IMG/VR virus record: IMGVR_UViG_3300047509_000125
Span: 1 to 64,000 of that record
Source: a virus
DNA: 64,000 nt
Reading direction: 5' to 3' (one strand)
The translations under genes and the position numbers were made by a program. Below the pieces are notes generated by a model. The model ran no database searches and was not told the origin of the DNA. It saw nothing but the letters and a program-made list of their open reading frames with translations. This document shows positions 14,823-62,869 of this stretch, piece by piece; the first letter of the stretch is position 1, and each line of letters starts with the position of its first letter.

Positions 14823-15866
14823 ATGCCTCCCCCGAATTTAGCCGTCGAACAATCAGACGATCTTAATCGCGCGATTGCGACAGCGGTTGCCAATCGGCCG
14901 CAGGGAGCCGCGCAACCTGCCCGAACAGTTCAGCCAACTGGCGCCGTTAGTGCCGCGCCAGCGACCGAACAATTTGCGGTTCCTCAACAGACCAGCGACC
15001 AACTGCGTTCAGGTCTAGACACAAGAGCACTGATTTCCAGCGCGGTCAGCCGCAGACAAATGATCGAAAGCGGCGTCGATCCGGATGCGCCAGCGTTGTA
15101 TCCGAGTCGTCAGAGACAACGTGGCGGTGGTCCGAGCCGATGGGAACAACTGCAACAGGAGCACCGAGAGTTAGGGTCCGACATCGAACATTATTCGTTG
15201 CTGGAAGCGCGACAGAATCACGAAAGTTATATTCAGAATCGAAACGCAGCCGCGGCACAGCAATTCTCAGGCATGGTTAACGAAATGGAACAGCTTACAT
15301 CGCCAATCGGTTCAAAAGAGCACGCCAAAGATGTGCTGGCGATTGCGGCGAAATATCCGGTGGGAGCGATGAGCACGGCTGGCCGGGAATTACTGCAACG
15401 ACATTCGACGATGCACGATTCGACGGCCGAATTACTCGATCAGATTCACCAAGCGTATCCGGAGCTGAAACTGAAACCTTCGCATATCGGGCCGGGAGGC
15501 GTGTCGTGGACGGTGGACAAGCCTACTGACGAGCCCGCTGGAGCCGACAAACGTCGTTATTCACGGTTACAAGCCTCGATTGAGCAGCACAAAACTCAAG
15601 CCGCAGCCGAAGCGCAGACTAACCGCAAAGCCGGACAAGAGAACGTCCCTTACAGCCAATCAGCGGAATGGGCTGGCGACCAAGCTGAACTCAAAGCGTT
15701 GGAGCAACAGTATCCGTCACTACGTCCGGCGCCGCCGGCGGGCAAAGAAGCTGCGCCAACAGCTACTCCACCATCCTCGGATAAAGAAGTTACACGGATG
15801 ACGAAGGATAACCGAAAAGCGGTATTCGATTCGGAAACGAAGAAGTTTTTGCGGTATGCCGAATGA
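14823..15866 (+). CDS. Putative internal virion or scaffold-like protein
   Basis: A 347-residue protein that starts one base after the previous stop. The N-terminus is Ala/Pro/Thr-rich and disordered; the middle and C-terminal parts are long charged helices (LLEARQNHESYIQNRNAAAA; QASIEQHKTQAAAEAQTN). It overlaps the giant protein gene by 11 nt. The composition resembles internal or ejected phage proteins. Confidence 0.5.
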   Translation: MPPPNLAVEQSDDLNRAIATAVANRPQGAAQPARTVQPTGAVSAAPATEQFAVPQQTSDQLRSGLDTRALISSAVSRRQMIESGVDPDAPALYPSRQRQRGGGPSRWEQLQQEHRELGSDIEHYSLLEARQNHESYIQNRNAAAAQQFSGMVNEMEQLTSPIGSKEHAKDVLAIAAKYPVGAMSTAGRELLQRHSTMHDSTAELLDQIHQAYPELKLKPSHIGPGGVSWTVDKPTDEPAGADKRRYSRLQASIEQHKTQAAAEAQTNRKAGQENVPYSQSAEWAGDQAELKALEQQYPSLRPAPPAGKEAAPTATPPSSDKEVTRMTKDNRKAVFDSETKKFLRYAE

Positions 15867-18800
15867 GCCGACCTGGGAGACCACAACCGAAGAAGCCCCA
15901 ACGTGGGACGCGACTACCGGGCCTGAGAGCCAGTCACGCAGGAGCACTTACGATCCAAACAAACTGCCGCCAGTTGGCGTAGCTGGGGTCGATATTACTC
16001 CGCCGCCGTCACCGGAAGTGATGGATCAACCGATTGTTTCGGTGCCGAAAATTGGAGAGATAGGTGGACAAAAGTCCGCACTTGCCCAAGTGGGAGCTGG
16101 CATTGTCAACACAGCCGCCAGAGCCGCAGAGGGGCTCGAGAGCGGAACCAATATCGCGCTTGCGCCAATCTTGGCGATGCCGGGTGTCGGTCGTGTTGCG
16201 GGCGCCGCGTTCGGTGTTCAACAATTCGCGGATGTTTCCGACGCGATCAAGGAAGCTCGTGCGCCGGGGAGAACGATTCAGCAACGGACTGAGTCGGTCG
16301 GCCGCGGTCTAACCGATATTTTATTTGGGATTCTCGGCGCTCGTTTTGCTGGCAAGGGCGTCGGAGAAGCAGCAAAACCAGGCGCCGCGGCTAAACCGGA
16401 AGTGGCAGCACCGGAAACTGAAACGCCAACCACAGATGCAGTAACAAAGGAGGTGACAAACGATGCCGTCCAGCCAAGTGATGCACAAATACAAACAGGG
16501 CAAGCTCCACTCGGGGAGCAAGCACGGCCAGCAGGTGAAGTCCCACGAACAAGCGGTGGCGATAATGTTGAGCGAAAAACGTCAGGAGCAGAAGCAGGGA
16601 GGCCATTACCACCGGAACGCGAGGCACCCACACAACAGCCGGTAGCACCGCCCCCTGCTCAGGTACAGGAGGTTCCTGCTTCAGAAATTGGTCGGTTAAG
16701 AGATTTACTCGGCGATCAGGTGCAAGGGCAAGCTGGCGGAATTCATGTGGTAATACGCAATAAGGAGGGAACACAAGTTAGGGCTATTTTCGTGGACAAG
16801 GATTTACCGACTAACGAGAAAGCTTCAATCGTTGAGCATGAACAAAGACACGCCCGGCTAGATCAGGATTCCTCGGCCCAGCGAAATGCTCAAGCAATCG
16901 TTGATGCGGTAAACGAAGATCCCGCACGCGATCCGTATCTCCACGAATTTATTCAGGCCGTACGCAAAGCTGGCTATCCCGAAGATGAGATAGCAAAGGA
17001 ACTAGTCGCTGAAGGTATCTTGTCATTTGAACACCTGAGTTCTGATCTACGGGACATTCAGGCTGGAAAAGGAAACGCTGGTAGGCGCCACCTAGAAAAT
17101 GTAGGAAGAAAGCGTGCCCAAGAAGAAATGGCGCATCCAGAACGCTTCATCGGTAACGTATTCGAACAGACAATTCCGCAATGGGCGCGCGACGAAATGG
17201 GTAGACGCGGTCTCTCACCAGGGCGCACATTCAACGATGTAGATCTTGGAAATCCGAGCGTCCAAGAAGCGATAAGGCTTGATCCAACTCTAACAAACGA
17301 ACAAAAATCCAGCCTACTGAGGATAGGCTCGCTGCCAGTTCCGGCCGTTCCGCAAGCCAAAGGGCAGGAACCGAAACCCGAACCGGCACCGGCCGTAACC
17401 CAGTTTGAAAATGTTCCAACGGTTGAACTACCGATTGACCAAATCAAGCTGAGTAAGGATGTGCCTAACTTCAAAGAAGGCGCTTCGGCTGAGACCGGCG
17501 TTGTCCCGCAGGAACAGTTAGCCGGTAAATACACTCGCCTTGGCACTGGCGCTATCACAGTTTGGGAACGCGCCAACGGCGATAAAGAGATTATCAGCGG
17601 GCGGCACCGGCTGGATTTAGCCAAGCGGAGCGGGGAAAAGACGATACCAACACAGGTAGTTCGGGAAGCGGACGGCTTTACCCGCGCCCAGGCGATAACG
17701 TTTGACGCCGAAGCCAATATTCGGGATGGTCAAGGGTCGGTTTCCGACTATGCCAACTACTTCCGCAACTCGGACATCACGCCCGAAGAAGCATCCGGCC
17801 GAGGGCTTCTTGCGCGAGACAAGGGCAGGAAGGGCTTCGCAATCGGCCGCAATGCCTCGGATGATCTCTACGCCCTCTATCGAGGCGGTAAGATTAATGA
17901 AACCCGAGCCGCCGCAATAGCGGAAGCCGCACCGGGCCAGCCTGAGCTTCAGGGCGTCGGGATTCGAGCTGCGAACGAAGGCGCGTCTCCCGCCGAGATT
18001 GCCGGCCGAATCGAAGCGGCCTCAAATGCTGCGCGAAGTGAAGCGCCCGCCAAACAAGGCGACTTTTTCGCTGACACGTCACAGGACGAGATTTGGAAAA
18101 AACAGGGGCAGTACGTCTCTCAACAGCGCCGCGCTTTACAAGACGTAATCACGACTCGCCGCGCGATTGTAAACCGATATGAAGCAGCAACAGCAACGGG
18201 CTCAATCAAAGCGGAACGGAGCCGAGCGGAAACGGAATTGGCCGATGCTCAAGCCCAACTCCAACGGTGGCAAAATTGGGCGACCGATCCGGATCTCCGC
18301 ACGCAGGTTGAAACTCTAGGCGCCGAAACCAAGGCGCCGGCTGCGGCAGAGCCACCCACACCACCCGAGCCAGCGGCAGCGGAGCCACAGTTACGCGCGG
18401 GTGAAGCGGGCACTGGCGATCTGTTCCAAGGCGGCGACCAGCCGTTCAATCTGGCCGGCGAAACTGGCGTCGATTACGGCGCACAACAAAAAGCCGCCGA
18501 AGCTGCCGCGGCCGAGCGTGCCAAAACTGCCGCGGATCATCCGACACTGAATTTTGGTGAACCAGAAAACCAGCCCGAAGCGGTTGAAAACGGTGTTGCA
18601 CCCGAGAAAACAGTAACGATCGGATCAACCGAACCGCGGGCAAATGAGATCAGTCCACAAGCGTTAGGCGTCACTCATCCGATGCCGGGATTCATCAAGG
18701 AAATTGCAGATTACTTCGTCAATTTCACGCCCTCGCAAATTGCGAATAGTCTGCGAAGTTCAATCAAAGCCGCGCTTGGCGAGACCTTCGCCAAAACCAC

Positions 18801-21051
18801 AATCGCCGATCGTGAATCGGGCGAACTTGGGGCGCGTTGGGTTTCAGCGCGAATCGCCGCGCCTCATTTGGCCGATTCGTTTGTAACGCAAGTGCTTGAG
18901 GGAACGAATGTCGATAAGATCAAATTCGGTGCTGCGCTGACCGAAGATAATTTGCGTTCCGTTCGGGCAGCGGCGGAAACACCAGAAGCCGCACAAGCTG
19001 TTACTTCGATTATCGGCGCTAAAAATTCTCCATTTAAAACCGAAGCTGAATATCAAGCGTTTCTGAATGATCCAGGGACAGCAAAAGCGATTGAACGGCA
19101 TCGCGCGTTATGGTCGGAAGTGATTGACCCGATGTTTCGAAAAGCGCAGCTGCTTGATCCAGACGTGGAACTGGCCTCCCGAGGCGAATCAAGCGGGGCG
19201 CGAATCAATTTGTTCAACGATGCTGAAGGCCGTGGTGGCTCCATTGTTAGCGGAACCGCTACCGGCAACCTGACGGCGACGTTTCGGAGAAAATCGCCGT
19301 TTGCGATCAGAGCTAAAGGGACCGGGCAAAACTACAACATCAATTACTCAGACATCATGGCGAACACCTTTGGGCGCCAACTCGAGATTGCTGCCAAAAA
19401 TGCATTCGAGCAAAGATTAGTGGATACGGGTAACGCCGTGATAGCAAAAGTCGGAGAGAAGCCGACGCTTCCAGATGGTGAAGACACGGTCGGATTTCCG
19501 CTTAAAAGAAAAAGCTCCGCAATCTTTACCAACGCCGAGGGCCAACCGCAAACCGTCCCGATCAATCAAAATATCTATGTCCGAAAGTCCATGGCTGGCG
19601 AATACCGACGCGGCGCCGATGTCGATTTGATAAAGGTGCCTGGCGCGGTGAAAGCGTTTACCAACGCTGCAAACCGAGCCGCGCTTGCCGGTCTAACTGA
19701 TGCCAGTGTTCACGTTCTTAATCTGAATACGGCGCTGCTGACGCGGCCATCAGTGACCGGCAGTCTCGTTGTCGATTCGCTGCTCTCTGCAACTGGCCGG
19801 GCCGATGTGCCCGTTATGCTCGCCAAAGTGCTCATCAAAGCGACCAAGGATAATCGGGCGCAAATGGCCGAGCTCGCCGAGATCGGGGCGTTACGTGGCG
19901 ACAGACCAACAGCCAATCCACTCGGGAACGTAATCAAGTGGTACGATAAAACTACCCGGCTAATGCTCGATGACGCGTATCAGAGCATGAGGAAAAGCGG
20001 GTTGGTCGAAGACAGCGAAACTGCGCGTCGAGAATTTATCAATCAGGTCGGTCAATATAATAAGAGAGCGCAAGGCGATCTTAGGCGCCTCGCTCGAGAT
20101 ACTGGTCTTGGTCCATTCGTTACCGCCGGCACAACCTTCAACACTCTCGGGCTACGCACACTGATTCTCGATCCTGGGGTGAAAGCCGCGTCTCCGATGG
20201 CTGCGGCCGCGATGCGCGCGAACGTTCTTTCAAAGTGGGTCGGCGCGGCCGTGTTTATCGGAACCGCGAATTATCTACTTACTCACAACAAAGGCGGGGG
20301 AGTTATGGGTCGTCCCGGCGTACCGATTGGACGATTGGATAGCGGGCTCAATGACGAAAACGGTCGGCCGCTGTCCGTGCCGGTATTCGACATATTGGGT
20401 CTCGGCCGAGCGTTGCGGGTAACAGGGGCGCGCGGATTTATCGAGTCACAGCGCAAAGGTTTAACTCTGGCCAACTCGTTTGATGCCGCGGCTCGAGACG
20501 CGTTCAACACCAACATCAGTCCGTTCACCGGGCCACCGTTACGATTTCTCAGCGTGGGAGCGACCGGTTATCAGCCGGCGGTCTCCGTTGGGCGCGAGTC
20601 GCGCGTGGTCCCGCCAGGCCAAAGTCAGTGGCAAGAGAATATGAAACAAGCGGTGCTCGACGCCAATCCTCTACTTCGATCCTTGCAGCTCTCCCGAACT
20701 TCGGGTGAAGGCGTCCGATCAGCCGTTCGCCAACAGATTCCGAGATTGTCGCTGCAACCGAGTCAATCGGCTGAATTTATGTCCAAGTATCCCGAAATCG
20801 TTCGCAAAGCGCAGGCGCGCGATTATGTGAACGACGTGATTGGACGGGCCAGGAAACTTAATCCACAGGACAAAGCTGCATTTGTTAAAGACGCACTTTC
20901 AAAACTGGCACCGGAAGACCGCGACAACGCGATTCGAACGATGAAATATTCGCGGATTTTGGACAAAAACGATCCGGCATTTCGGGAGTCTGGCACACCC
21001 AAAGGCAGGACCGGCCGCAGCCTGTTGCGTCGTAACCGAACTGGTCGATGA
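15856..21051 (+). CDS. Giant polyvalent, probably ejected virion protein (metallopeptidase-like, ParB/DdrB-like, C-terminal LPD-like)
   Basis: The protein has 1731 residues. Residues 60-180 are Gly/Ala-rich and could insert in membranes. HEQRH at 328-332 is an HExxH zinc-peptidase motif, followed by a KELVAEG helix as in phage polyvalent-protein peptidases. Residues about 515-640 form a ParB/Srx-like domain (LPIDQIKLS...ISGRHRLDLA near 580). Long Ala/Gln linkers follow, then a C-terminal region (about 1180-1600) of the large-polyvalent-protein type with a hydrophobic segment near 1461. Such proteins are packaged and enter the host with the DNA to protect or prepare it, as DarB and DdrB-like proteins do. 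The exact domain boundaries are inferred by eye. Confidence 0.7.
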   Translation: MPNEPTWETTTEEAPTWDATTGPESQSRRSTYDPNKLPPVGVAGVDITPPPSPEVMDQPIVSVPKIGEIGGQKSALAQVGAGIVNTAARAAEGLESGTNIALAPILAMPGVGRVAGAAFGVQQFADVSDAIKEARAPGRTIQQRTESVGRGLTDILFGILGARFAGKGVGEAAKPGAAAKPEVAAPETETPTTDAVTKEVTNDAVQPSDAQIQTGQAPLGEQARPAGEVPRTSGGDNVERKTSGAEAGRPLPPEREAPTQQPVAPPPAQVQEVPASEIGRLRDLLGDQVQGQAGGIHVVIRNKEGTQVRAIFVDKDLPTNEKASIVEHEQRHARLDQDSSAQRNAQAIVDAVNEDPARDPYLHEFIQAVRKAGYPEDEIAKELVAEGILSFEHLSSDLRDIQAGKGNAGRRHLENVGRKRAQEEMAHPERFIGNVFEQTIPQWARDEMGRRGLSPGRTFNDVDLGNPSVQEAIRLDPTLTNEQKSSLLRIGSLPVPAVPQAKGQEPKPEPAPAVTQFENVPTVELPIDQIKLSKDVPNFKEGASAETGVVPQEQLAGKYTRLGTGAITVWERANGDKEIISGRHRLDLAKRSGEKTIPTQVVREADGFTRAQAITFDAEANIRDGQGSVSDYANYFRNSDITPEEASGRGLLARDKGRKGFAIGRNASDDLYALYRGGKINETRAAAIAEAAPGQPELQGVGIRAANEGASPAEIAGRIEAASNAARSEAPAKQGDFFADTSQDEIWKKQGQYVSQQRRALQDVITTRRAIVNRYEAATATGSIKAERSRAETELADAQAQLQRWQNWATDPDLRTQVETLGAETKAPAAAEPPTPPEPAAAEPQLRAGEAGTGDLFQGGDQPFNLAGETGVDYGAQQKAAEAAAAERAKTAADHPTLNFGEPENQPEAVENGVAPEKTVTIGSTEPRANEISPQALGVTHPMPGFIKEIADYFVNFTPSQIANSLRSSIKAALGETFAKTTIADRESGELGARWVSARIAAPHLADSFVTQVLEGTNVDKIKFGAALTEDNLRSVRAAAETPEAAQAVTSIIGAKNSPFKTEAEYQAFLNDPGTAKAIERHRALWSEVIDPMFRKAQLLDPDVELASRGESSGARINLFNDAEGRGGSIVSGTATGNLTATFRRKSPFAIRAKGTGQNYNINYSDIMANTFGRQLEIAAKNAFEQRLVDTGNAVIAKVGEKPTLPDGEDTVGFPLKRKSSAIFTNAEGQPQTVPINQNIYVRKSMAGEYRRGADVDLIKVPGAVKAFTNAANRAALAGLTDASVHVLNLNTALLTRPSVTGSLVVDSLLSATGRADVPVMLAKVLIKATKDNRAQMAELAEIGALRGDRPTANPLGNVIKWYDKTTRLMLDDAYQSMRKSGLVEDSETARREFINQVGQYNKRAQGDLRRLARDTGLGPFVTAGTTFNTLGLRTLILDPGVKAASPMAAAAMRANVLSKWVGAAVFIGTANYLLTHNKGGGVMGRPGVPIGRLDSGLNDENGRPLSVPVFDILGLGRALRVTGARGFIESQRKGLTLANSFDAAARDAFNTNISPFTGPPLRFLSVGATGYQPAVSVGRESRVVPPGQSQWQENMKQAVLDANPLLRSLQLSRTSGEGVRSAVRQQIPRLSLQPSQSAEFMSKYPEIVRKAQARDYVNDVIGRARKLNPQDKAAFVKDALSKLAPEDRDNAIRTMKYSRILDKNDPAFRESGTPKGRTGRSLLRRNRTGR

Positions 21052-21128
21052 AACTTTTGCTTCTCTTAGTCCGACTATTTTGGAGTTGGGAATTTGCAGT
21101 TCTACCTAACGGATCACCAATACTGTGA
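21048..21128 (+). CDS. 26-residue hydrophobic peptide
   Basis: The frame is locked between an ATGA overlap with the giant gene and a GTGA overlap with the next gene. The product is a leucine-rich start (MKLLLLLVRLFWSW) and a short tail (EFAVLPNGSPIL). It may be only a coupling device, a membrane peptide, or a peptide substrate for the nearby ATP-grasp enzyme; the last is speculative. Confidence 0.4.
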   Translation: MKLLLLLVRLFWSWEFAVLPNGSPIL

Positions 21129-21547
21129 ACATCATTATCAAAGTCATTCCTGAATCTGAACAGCGGCCGGAAGTAAACGGCGCTGATTGGTTTTTTGATG
21201 AGAATGCAGATTTACAGGTACGGGTATCGCCGATGAGCGATTGGAGGTATGAAACACTACTTGCCATTCACGAAGCGGTTGAAGCGATCATGTGTAAGCA
21301 TAACGGCGTCACCGTCGAAGCGGTTGATGCCTTCGATCAGGAGTACGATAAAACTCACACGTTCGACGTGAATGCCGGGGATGAACCGAATGCGCCATAC
21401 ATGCGCGAACATTGCCTTGCAACAGCCATCGAGCGAATCTTGTGCGCCGAACTCGACGTAAATTGGGCTGAGTATGATCGTGAATTGGCTGAATCGTATC
21501 CAGGGCCGTCGAAGAAAATGATTCCGGTCAATTATCCCGGTGTATGA
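21125..21547 (+). CDS. Conserved phage protein with HExxE motif
   Basis: A 140-residue protein from GTG 21125 (GTGA overlap). The helix LAIHEAVEAIMCKHNG near residues 48-62 holds an HExxE pair, and MREHCLATAIERILCAELDV carries another His. Short phage proteins with this pattern are widespread, and metal binding is likely but not proven. It is directly coupled to the ATP-grasp gene, so the two may act together. Confidence 0.65.
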   Translation: MNIIIKVIPESEQRPEVNGADWFFDENADLQVRVSPMSDWRYETLLAIHEAVEAIMCKHNGVTVEAVDAFDQEYDKTHTFDVNAGDEPNAPYMREHCLATAIERILCAELDVNWAEYDRELAESYPGPSKKMIPVNYPGV

Positions 21548-22845
21548 AGGACGCCAAAGAAGTCGTAGCCTGCGTGATCGACTACGGCTACTTTATCTCG
21601 TTAGCCGACAAGCTCTCTGAAACTTTCGACACGGTTTACTATTATAGCCCGTTCGAGCACGAGTATCTGAATCTGAACGATTGTGTTGTTGGTGACGGTC
21701 TGGATCGAGTCGAACGGATGGACGAGTTTTTCGCGCCTGAGATATTTGACACGATTGACCTGTTCATATTTCCGGACATAGGGTTTGCACCACTACAGCA
21801 GCATTTACGCTCGTTAGGTAAAGCGGTTTGGGGATCGTTTGAAACCACCGAACTGGAAATGGTTCGAACCAAGTTTTTGGAAGTAATGAAAGAACTGGGA
21901 TTGCCATTAGCCAAGCATACGATCGCGGAAGGTATAACAGAACTGGCTGACCATCTTCGGAAGGTCGATGACAAGTGGATCAAGATAGATCGTTACCGCG
22001 GGGTCATGGAAACATGGCATCACCGGGATTGGCAGCACAGCGAACGTGAACTGGAGCGATTGGCTCTCACTCTAGGGGCAGCTAAAGAGTACGTGACCTT
22101 TGTCATTCAAGACCCAATTCCAACTGACATTGAGTTAGGATACGACGGGTGGTGCGTTGACGGCGAGTTTCCGTTTTCTTCTTTTCAGGGATACGAAAAT
22201 AAGAATGAACTTTACATCGGCGCCCTAAAGAAATATTCGGACATTCCCAAAGAAATCCAGATGGTTAACGAGGCGTTCGATCCGATTTTAACCAAAGCCG
22301 GCTACCGGAACTTTCTAGCAACTGAAGTTAGGATAAAAGATAAGGAGCCATACTTTATTGACCCGACGTTTCGAATGCCTGGACAGACTGGCGAACAACT
22401 GTTGGAGACATGCTCCAATCTTGCTGACGTGGTTTGGCACGGCGCCAACGGGCAAGTATTAGAGCCGAAGTTCAAATACAAGTTTTCGGTGAGTGCCACG
22501 CTGCATTACGACGCTTTGCCGGCCGATCAGTGGCGAGTACTCAATGTTCCCGAGAAAGTTAGGCAATGGGTGAAACTGATGTACTACTGCCAGATTAATG
22601 ACGTGTTCCATATCATCCCGAGTTTGAAGGACGAAGTCGGAGTGGTGCTTGGGGTTGGTAACACGATTCAAGAGACATTCGCTCATCTAAAAAAGAACTT
22701 GGACATTCTCTCGGTGGAACCAATTTCCTGTCAGTTAGATGGATTTTTTGATTTGCTTGATTCAATTCGCGCGGCCGAAAAGCGCGGGATGAAATTCAGT
22801 GACCAACGTACTCCGACCGATCAGGAAATACTGAAGTTAATGTAA
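21544..22845 (+). CDS. ATP-grasp ligase-like protein
   Basis: A 433-residue protein. The N-terminal domain looks like a PreATP-grasp fold (DLFIFPDIG at 72-80, GKAVWGS at 92-98). The ATP-grasp core follows: TKFLEVMKELGLPLAKH (109-125), the lysine strand WIKIDRYRGVMETW (145-158), and YFIDPTFRMPGQTGE (270-284) in the place of the metal-binding Glu/Asn motif. It resembles PurD/carboxylate-amine ligases, which make acyl-phosphate intermediates and join a carboxylate to an amine. The substrate is unknown. Location inside the virion module suggests it modifies a virion protein, a peptide, or a host wall or nucleotide target. Confidence 0.65.
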   Translation: MKDAKEVVACVIDYGYFISLADKLSETFDTVYYYSPFEHEYLNLNDCVVGDGLDRVERMDEFFAPEIFDTIDLFIFPDIGFAPLQQHLRSLGKAVWGSFETTELEMVRTKFLEVMKELGLPLAKHTIAEGITELADHLRKVDDKWIKIDRYRGVMETWHHRDWQHSERELERLALTLGAAKEYVTFVIQDPIPTDIELGYDGWCVDGEFPFSSFQGYENKNELYIGALKKYSDIPKEIQMVNEAFDPILTKAGYRNFLATEVRIKDKEPYFIDPTFRMPGQTGEQLLETCSNLADVVWHGANGQVLEPKFKYKFSVSATLHYDALPADQWRVLNVPEKVRQWVKLMYYCQINDVFHIIPSLKDEVGVVLGVGNTIQETFAHLKKNLDILSVEPISCQLDGFFDLLDSIRAAEKRGMKFSDQRTPTDQEILKLM

Positions 22846-61507: not shown

Positions 61508-62422
61508 ATGAGCAGCTTGACCTTAGCGTACATCACGGCCCGCGAAGAACCACATAGCGAATGGTTTTTCAGTTCGTTGCGACATCAGTTAGGCGAGAAC
61601 GACCCGTTACCGAAAGTGATGGTGGTTGATCGACTGTTCGACCCGATAAATCGTTTCCCGCACGGTGCTGGTTACGTTGGCCCGATGCAGCGGACAGCGC
61701 CAAAACCGACGGTGTGGCAAGGACCGCATCGGTTGACCAAGGAAGACTGGTTTGCGATGGCCAACGCGCGGAACACTGCACTATGTTTGTGCGATACCGA
61801 TTGGATTGCCTATGTGGATGATCTATCCGTGTTAATGCCGGCGTGGTTAGGGTGCGTGAAAGAGGCAATCAGTGGCAGCTACAACGTCGCGGGCGCTTAC
61901 CGGAAAGTGAAACAGTTAGTTGTGGAAGAAGGGATCGTAAAATCCTTTATTCCGTATTCGGATGATGTCCGGATCAGGTTATCGATGGGTTATAAGGTAC
62001 CATGTGACTGTGACGGTGGCTGGCTATACGGTTGTTCGTGCGCGTTTCGGGTGGAAGATTTATTGGCGGTAGGCGGTTGGCCCGAGATTTGTGACGGGAT
62101 TGGGAGCGAAGATTACTGCCTTGGGATCGCGCTTAAAAACGCCGGGAAACCGTTGATGTATGACCGGAGAATGATGACCTTTGAAGCCGAAGATTTACAT
62201 GGGATTGGGACACCGTTACGTCGGACGGACAAAGGGATTTCACCTAACGACAAGAGTCACGCGTTACTCGGTATAGCGCGATCGAGTGTTTATTACCCGA
62301 ACTATTTCCCGAGTGGCGGGATAAAAGCGGAACGTGAACGGGTGTTAAGTGGGAAACATTTTACGCTTGTCCAGATTCCAGATCGAGACTGGTATGATGG
62401 ACAGTTGTTAGCGGAAATGTGA
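61508..62422 (+). CDS. GT-A-type glycosyltransferase
   Basis: A 304-residue protein. The N-terminal strand and loop (LTLAYITAREEPHSEW), the DTDWIAYVDDL segment near residues 98-108 with a DxD-like acidic pair, and WLYGCSCAFRVEDLLAVGGW fit family 2-like GT-A enzymes that transfer sugar from a nucleotide donor. In phages they decorate DNA, capsid or host glycans. It is divergent from TerL with a 56-bp gap. Confidence 0.65.
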   Translation: MSSLTLAYITAREEPHSEWFFSSLRHQLGENDPLPKVMVVDRLFDPINRFPHGAGYVGPMQRTAPKPTVWQGPHRLTKEDWFAMANARNTALCLCDTDWIAYVDDLSVLMPAWLGCVKEAISGSYNVAGAYRKVKQLVVEEGIVKSFIPYSDDVRIRLSMGYKVPCDCDGGWLYGCSCAFRVEDLLAVGGWPEICDGIGSEDYCLGIALKNAGKPLMYDRRMMTFEAEDLHGIGTPLRRTDKGISPNDKSHALLGIARSSVYYPNYFPSGGIKAERERVLSGKHFTLVQIPDRDWYDGQLLAEM

Positions 62423-62423
62423 A

Positions 62424-62591
62424 ATGAAATGGCAGCACCTATTAGGACTATCAATCATACTTTTGGTGTTTGGATTTTTTGTATATCAGATGGCAAGGGA
62501 CATCGGATGGGCGATGACGATTAAGTTATGGGCAGTAATCTTATGCGCGAGTATTCTTATATCAATCGCAATTACACTGCTAGCCACATGA
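62424..62591 (+). CDS. Small two-helix membrane protein
   Basis: A 55-residue frame, starting 1 nt after the glycosyltransferase stop and ending in an ATGA overlap with the GroES-like gene. Two hydrophobic helices (LLGLSIILLVFGFFVY; LWAVILCASILISIAITLL). Likely translated because of its coupling. Function unknown. Confidence 0.55.
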   Translation: MKWQHLLGLSIILLVFGFFVYQMARDIGWAMTIKLWAVILCASILISIAITLLAT

Positions 62592-62869
62592 CAAATTTCA
62601 CTCCGTTAGGCGACATCGTGATGGTGAAAGAAATCGTTTACGATGAGATCCGCGGGTTCAAGTTACCGGATGAATGCGCGGAGAAACGGTTTCCGGACAA
62701 AGGGACAGTTGTAGCGATTGGGACCGGAAAAGCGGTTAAAGCGTTGGGATTGAATATCGGTGACGAAATCATTCTGCCAACGGCCGCGCCACATACCTAC
62801 ATGGAGTTAGGAGGGAACCGTTACCGGCTGGTCCGGAGTGAGCGCGTGATTGGGAAGATTGAGCGATGA
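62588..62869 (+). CDS. GroES-like co-chaperonin
   Basis: The protein has 93 residues from ATG 62588 (ATGA overlap). FTPLGDIVMVKE, a mobile-loop region (YDEIRGFKLPDECAEKRF), KGTVVAIGTGKAV, then LNIGDEIILP and YRLVRSERVIGKIE match the Cpn10 fold with little change. Phage cochaperonins such as T4 gp31 replace host GroES on GroEL so that a large capsid protein fits. The FKL hydrophobic triple should contact GroEL. No GroEL is present, so it must use the host's. Confidence 0.8.
   Translation: MTNFTPLGDIVMVKEIVYDEIRGFKLPDECAEKRFPDKGTVVAIGTGKAVKALGLNIGDEIILPTAAPHTYMELGGNRYRLVRSERVIGKIER

Follow-up and report, generated by a model that had tools for sequence, protein, structure and literature searches.

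The stretch of DNA analysed here, referred to below as the window, comprises positions 1 to 64,000 of the 66,018-bp IMG/VR virus record IMGVR_UViG_3300047509_000125. It carries two genes, one for a small protein with an HExxE motif (the HExxE protein) and one for an ATP-grasp ligase, which share a 4-base overlap; the gene that follows begins at 22845. The first-pass annotation of this DNA had described three coupled genes, with a 26-residue peptide encoded ahead of the pair as a possible substrate. We found that the HExxE protein and the ligase are conserved families and form a real, overlapping gene pair; the trio is not real, the peptide having no counterpart in relatives. The positions of the features are collected in Table 1.

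Table 1. Features of the gene pair and its predicted functional residues in the window (AF2, AlphaFold).
Feature	Position	Strand	Remarks
26-codon frame MKLLLLLVRLFWSWEFAVLPNGSPIL	21048..21128	+	overlaps upstream stop (ATGA) and downstream GTG start (GTGA)
HExxE protein, 140 aa	21125..21547	+	GTG start 21125, stop 21547; 98 non-redundant relatives, AF2 model, weak Foldseek matches
HEAVE motif, residues 49-53 of HExxE protein	21269..21283	+	H49, E53 invariant; E50 in 97%
H96 to E103 of HExxE protein, second pair of predicted metal-site residues	21410..21433	+	both invariant in 98 sequences
GARS(PurD)-like ATP-grasp carboxylate-amine ligase (predicted), 433 aa	21544..22845	+	ATG 21544; AF2, Foldseek, profile match
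K147 of ligase, predicted ATP-site lysine	21982..21984	+	100% in 91 sequences
E261, R263, D273, R277 of ligase, predicted Mg-/phosphate-site residues of ATP-grasp	22324..22374	+	all 100% in 91 sequences

Direct sequence searches of Pfam, PHROG, NCBIfam and PDB gave no match for the window ligase. Its AF2 model (predicted local distance difference test score, pLDDT, 95.2; predicted template modelling score, pTM, 0.92) was matched best by glycinamide ribonucleotide (GAR) synthetase 1vkz in Foldseek (E=3.5e-20), with the L-amino acid ligase 3vot at E=2.9e-15, and the 498 matches to PDB at E<=0.001 were led by GAR synthetases (GARS). A profile built from 25 ligase sequences likewise reached GAR synthetase 2yw2 (E=3.9e-5). 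Residues K147, R152, E197, D201, E218, K220, E261, R263, D273 and R277 are invariant in 91 ligase sequences, and E261, D273 and R277, matched by eye, presumably correspond to E276, E288 and R292 of biotin carboxylase (Mg ligands and catalytic Arg). By its predicted fold together with the conserved Lys, acidic Mg ligands and phosphate-binding Arg, the protein is a member of the ATP-grasp superfamily. The first-pass reading of the gene as an ATP-grasp enzyme, for which missing ATP-binding residues would have been damaging, is thus borne out, with K147, E261, D273 and R277 kept in 91/91 sequences.

As the nearest fold and profile relatives are PurD proteins, the gene might be regarded as a purine-synthesis auxiliary gene, a phage PurD making glycinamide ribonucleotide. 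PurD holds phosphoribosylamine by means of a GGREH loop, and this loop was found in none of the 106 ligase homologues, so that membership in PurD was rejected and the ligase is better described as GARS-type in its working. The window protein also gave no match to the curated GARS/PurD models (Pfam GARS_A, GARS_N and GARS_C, NCBIfam purD), and the partner genes of the family encode the HExxE protein and, as described below, SpeD-like proteins. A phage PurD is therefore extremely unlikely.

Comparison of 98 non-redundant relatives of the HExxE protein revealed that H49, E53, D71, P91, Y92, H96 and E103 do not vary, and that E50 is replaced by A or S in three members. In the AF2 model (pLDDT 89.7), which consists of three strands and four helices, H49/E53 and H96/E103 lie on two helices. 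Fold matches were weak, and most of them involved domains of peptidase type, SprT and IrrE among them, which weakly suggests a metal-binding protein with a minimal zincin-like fold. The resemblance to the SprT/IrrE minimal zincins lies in the strands followed by a helix with the HE residues; unlike these, the family has HExxE instead of the zincin HExxH, with E53 invariant in all 98 sequences, the base Glu is replaced in three members and the fold matches are non-significant. Since the family tolerates loss of E50 but not of the ligand-like residues, we regard a metal site as the first and classical proteolysis as the second interpretation. At four loci (L033, L160, L171 and L186) an HExxE gene without ATP-grasp stands directly before what by eye is the start of a large uracil-DNA glycosylase-like protein, suggestive of a second partnership.

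At its two ends the 26-codon frame overlaps the stop codon of the upstream 1731-aa gene and the GTG with which the HExxE gene begins, an arrangement that would fit a system like those for ribosomally synthesized and post-translationally modified peptides (RiPPs), with the 26-residue product as substrate of the ligase. A graspetide-type RiPP system has a conserved precursor peptide beside the ligase, but no peptide like the 26-mer is encoded at the corresponding place in relatives that share the gene order: the slot ahead of HExxE is empty in L003 and L007 and holds unrelated frames in L002 (66 codons) and L019 (56 codons). Moreover, the frame stays open in 27% of shuffles of the gap that keep its dinucleotide content. 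As the frame is not conserved, the first-pass suggestion of the peptide as substrate is unsupported, and we consider a RiPP-like system hardly credible. The frame is probably non-functional as a peptide and possibly, at most, a mini-cistron for translational coupling. The 66-codon frame of L002 (L002:5804-6004), located between portal and HExxE genes, encodes a product that starts like HExxE (MNITIKTIP) and is perhaps a partial duplication.

Relatives of the ligase are encoded in at least 249 viral stretches. A search of viral contigs with the single ligase protein gave no match, and relatives were obtained only with alignments as query; similarly, tblastn of INPHARED (50,697 GenBank phage records) with five queries including the window ligase returned no match at the sensitivity used. 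Among the 78 non-redundant loci of the ligase-query set, HExxE is directly adjacent in 36 (24 upstream, 12 downstream), and in most of these the two genes overlap, by exactly 4 bases in 19. Neighbour clustering of 106 ligase loci identified HExxE as the only frequent direct partner (64 loci). Because the latter set includes loci reached via HExxE, only the figure for the 78 loci is free of this bias. Mapping the HExxE-upstream state on the ligase tree requires a minimum of 11 changes along branches with strong support, and HExxE also adjoins divergent, more PurD-like ATP-grasps that pass or come near the Pfam GARS_A cut-off. With order changes, repeated gain and loss, and two ATP-grasp branches sharing one partner, inherited gene order alone hardly explains the pairing. 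Two ligase genes, far apart, were seen in each of the contigs L082/L095 and L083/L094, with HExxE downstream of at least one copy.

Many phages have the pair after the portal gene and ahead of the scaffold and capsid genes, as named by eye from sequence and order. The location between structural genes, as given in the first-pass annotation, holds only loosely for the window itself: candidates for portal, scaffold and capsid genes lie downstream of the pair (named by eye and by likeness to the gene order of relatives), but of the two flanking genes the upstream one gave no family match and the downstream one matched only a repeat common to virion structural proteins. That the cassette often neighbours genes for portal, scaffold or very large structural proteins would suit a protein-modifying pair, in which a virion or host protein receives amino acids or amines from the ATP-grasp enzyme and has them trimmed or removed by HExxE as a zincin-like peptidase. 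In RimK-like systems the pairing of a ligase with a hydrolase is well established, and the likeness of HExxE to SprT/IrrE peptidase folds points the same way. In one clade, however, the ligase comes first and the pair is found near replication-type, not structural, genes, so that a virion protein as target does not follow from position alone. The ligase fold is GARS-like instead of RimK- or R2K-like, and three members have A or S in place of the zincin base E50. On balance, we judge protein modification to be unlikely.

Further indication of the possible substrate came from a sister clade of the ligase, in which eight ligase genes are directly preceded by a gene for a small protein of the S-adenosylmethionine (AdoMet) decarboxylase family (SpeD-like, PF02675) and one ligase gene is followed by a gene for a pyruvoyl-dependent arginine decarboxylase (PvlArgDC, PF01862, E=5e-45). 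When the SpeD-like protein alone was used as query, in the form of a five-row alignment (an 8-row version was too variable), 31 loci were obtained, 29 of them with a ligase close by, in most cases immediately following. The ligase lies within 150 bases of SpeD in 16 non-duplicate loci; in the others of the 29 the distance reaches about 1 kb or the overlap is larger. The gene order HExxE, SpeD-like, ligase was found in L069, L086 and L090, and across 36 virus records these decarboxylases occur only in records where they adjoin the ligase. The equivalents of Thermotoga maritima S63 and C83, including the pyruvoyl serine, are kept in the SpeD-like neighbours. SpeD homologues of phages have been shown to act as decarboxylases of arginine or ornithine (PMC9992855, PMC10407285). 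The neighbouring genes in these related phages suggest, as co-substrate, an amine that arises from an amino acid by decarboxylation. SpeD-like and ligase genes were also found in a contig of a cultured bacterium, Bradyrhizobium sp. YR681 (L190, NZ_AKIY01000059.1), which is probably a prophage or phage contig and offers a tractable source.

An amine supply could also serve a hypermodification of DNA or nucleotides, in which the ligase helps to put an amine-bearing group on phage DNA. Polyamine-modified phage DNA exists in the form of alpha-putrescinylthymine, and both the SpeD and arginine decarboxylase partners and the location of the pair near replication-type genes in one clade agree with such a role. 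Yet neighbour clustering gave no base-modification gene recurring beside the pair, and we regard this explanation as very unlikely.

The explanation that we favour, albeit tentatively, is that the phage encodes a carboxylate-amine ligase that joins an amino-acid-derived amine to a carboxylate, with the HExxE protein as a metal-dependent accessory. The ATP-grasp ligase would phosphorylate the carboxylate with ATP and pass it to a small amine, giving an amide. In the sister clade the amine, of the agmatine or putrescine class, would be supplied by the phage SpeD-like or pyruvoyl arginine decarboxylase, and in the clade of the window the host pool would provide it. For the HExxE protein we predict a divalent metal bound via H49, E53 and H96, possibly also E103 and D71, and it may be an accessory that hydrolyses or processes the substrate or the product; the 26-residue peptide would stand outside the system. 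Candidates for the carboxylate are a small acid, a virion protein and a host envelope component, and we lean towards a small molecule or polyamine-type conjugate. A broader proposal, that the GARS-derived ligase and the HExxE metalloprotein family, in some phages with a SpeD-derived decarboxylase, make up a widespread and so far undescribed phage pathway that decorates a virion, nucleic acid or host target with a conjugate of the polyamine or agmatine type, is in our view somewhat unlikely.

Several results weigh against the favoured explanation. The window's own record, when searched, contained no SpeD-like or PvlArgDC gene, and the link to an amine is therefore borrowed from the sister clade. 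The equivalent of T. maritima H68 is Asp in 7/8 aligned SpeD-like proteins (L111 has Asp, whereas L102 retains the His), which makes the activity of these proteins uncertain. The best fold matches of the HExxE protein reach only E 0.026 (viral) and 0.32 (PDB). No amidoligase (PF12224), the partner in cassettes of the phiEco32 type, was detected in the 66-kb record, and such a partner was rejected. Nor is the partnership obligate, as there are loci of each gene without the other: among 67 HExxE loci, 29 adjoin the ligase and 28 have no ATP-grasp in the stretch examined. About half of the ATP-grasp loci have no adjacent HExxE, against the 36/78 with HExxE adjacent; a ligase found alone elsewhere, together with a non-conserved 26-residue frame, had been named in the first-pass annotation as refuting its reading.

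The 1731-aa protein encoded upstream of the pair (window 15856-21051) has, by eye, an HEQRH motif and a ParB-like stretch and resembles an injected polyvalent protein. It gave no match in Pfam or PHROG, and we found no link to the window-type ATP-grasp in the polyvalent-protein literature. Elsewhere in the window, a gene for a GroES-like co-chaperonin (Cpn10, E=4e-7) is located at 62528-62869; GroES-like genes are also present near the ligase in L028 (Pfam match) and near HExxE in L140 and L163 (by eye). A glycosyltransferase-2-like protein (61508-62422; weak Pfam match) adjoins a terminase candidate.

The pair is in none of the family libraries used and no description of it was found among openly licensed papers, where the known systems are described with neither this ligase branch nor the HExxE partner; the first-pass suggestion of an undescribed system is consistent with this. 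Two linked protein families are thereby defined outside these libraries, and, by suggesting a short list of amines, the link to the decarboxylases opens the question of the substrate to testing. With GAR synthetase/PurD the ligase shares the layout of N, ATP-grasp and C domains by predicted structure and a detectable profile similarity, whereas the window branch has no GGREH loop, lies outside the Pfam and NCBIfam models and has other gene partners. The phage SpeD-derived arginine/ornithine decarboxylases resemble the SpeD-like neighbours in belonging to PF02675 and keeping the pyruvoyl serine, but most of the proteins studied here have Asp at the H68 position, and an ATP-grasp is not mentioned in the published paper on phage polyamines. 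Bacterial operons link AdoMet decarboxylase to an ATP-grasp like glutathionylspermidine synthetase (GspS) (PMC11237479), which parallels the tie of a SpeD-family decarboxylase to an ATP-grasp ligase; their ATP-grasp is GspS-related and the phage one GARS-like, and no PspA, DUF350 or lipoprotein partners were seen here. R2K ATP-grasps occur in jumbo phages (PMC7824862).

A parallel as a phage cassette around amide-forming enzymes is that of the phiEco32 type, with ATP-grasp, amidoligase (PF12224) and glutamine amidotransferase. It differs in that the partners here are HExxE and SpeD-like proteins, and tblastn of all INPHARED phage records with the window ligase gave no match. The ATP-grasp enzymes include Ddl-type ligases, which would be compatible with a host-envelope modification, in which the ligase alters peptidoglycan stem peptides or another surface component and so shuts out other phages. 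An envelope change that excludes other phages has been proposed for the phiEco32-type cassettes, in work cited in PMC10580990. Against such a role, which we consider decidedly improbable, stand the missing amidoligase, the SpeD linkage, which favours an amine pool, and the absence of a recurring envelope gene beside the ligase in the neighbour clustering of 106 loci. If the carboxylate-amine ligase explanation is true, the pair would give phages a way of conjugating amines covalently that differs from the amidoligase cassettes described to date.

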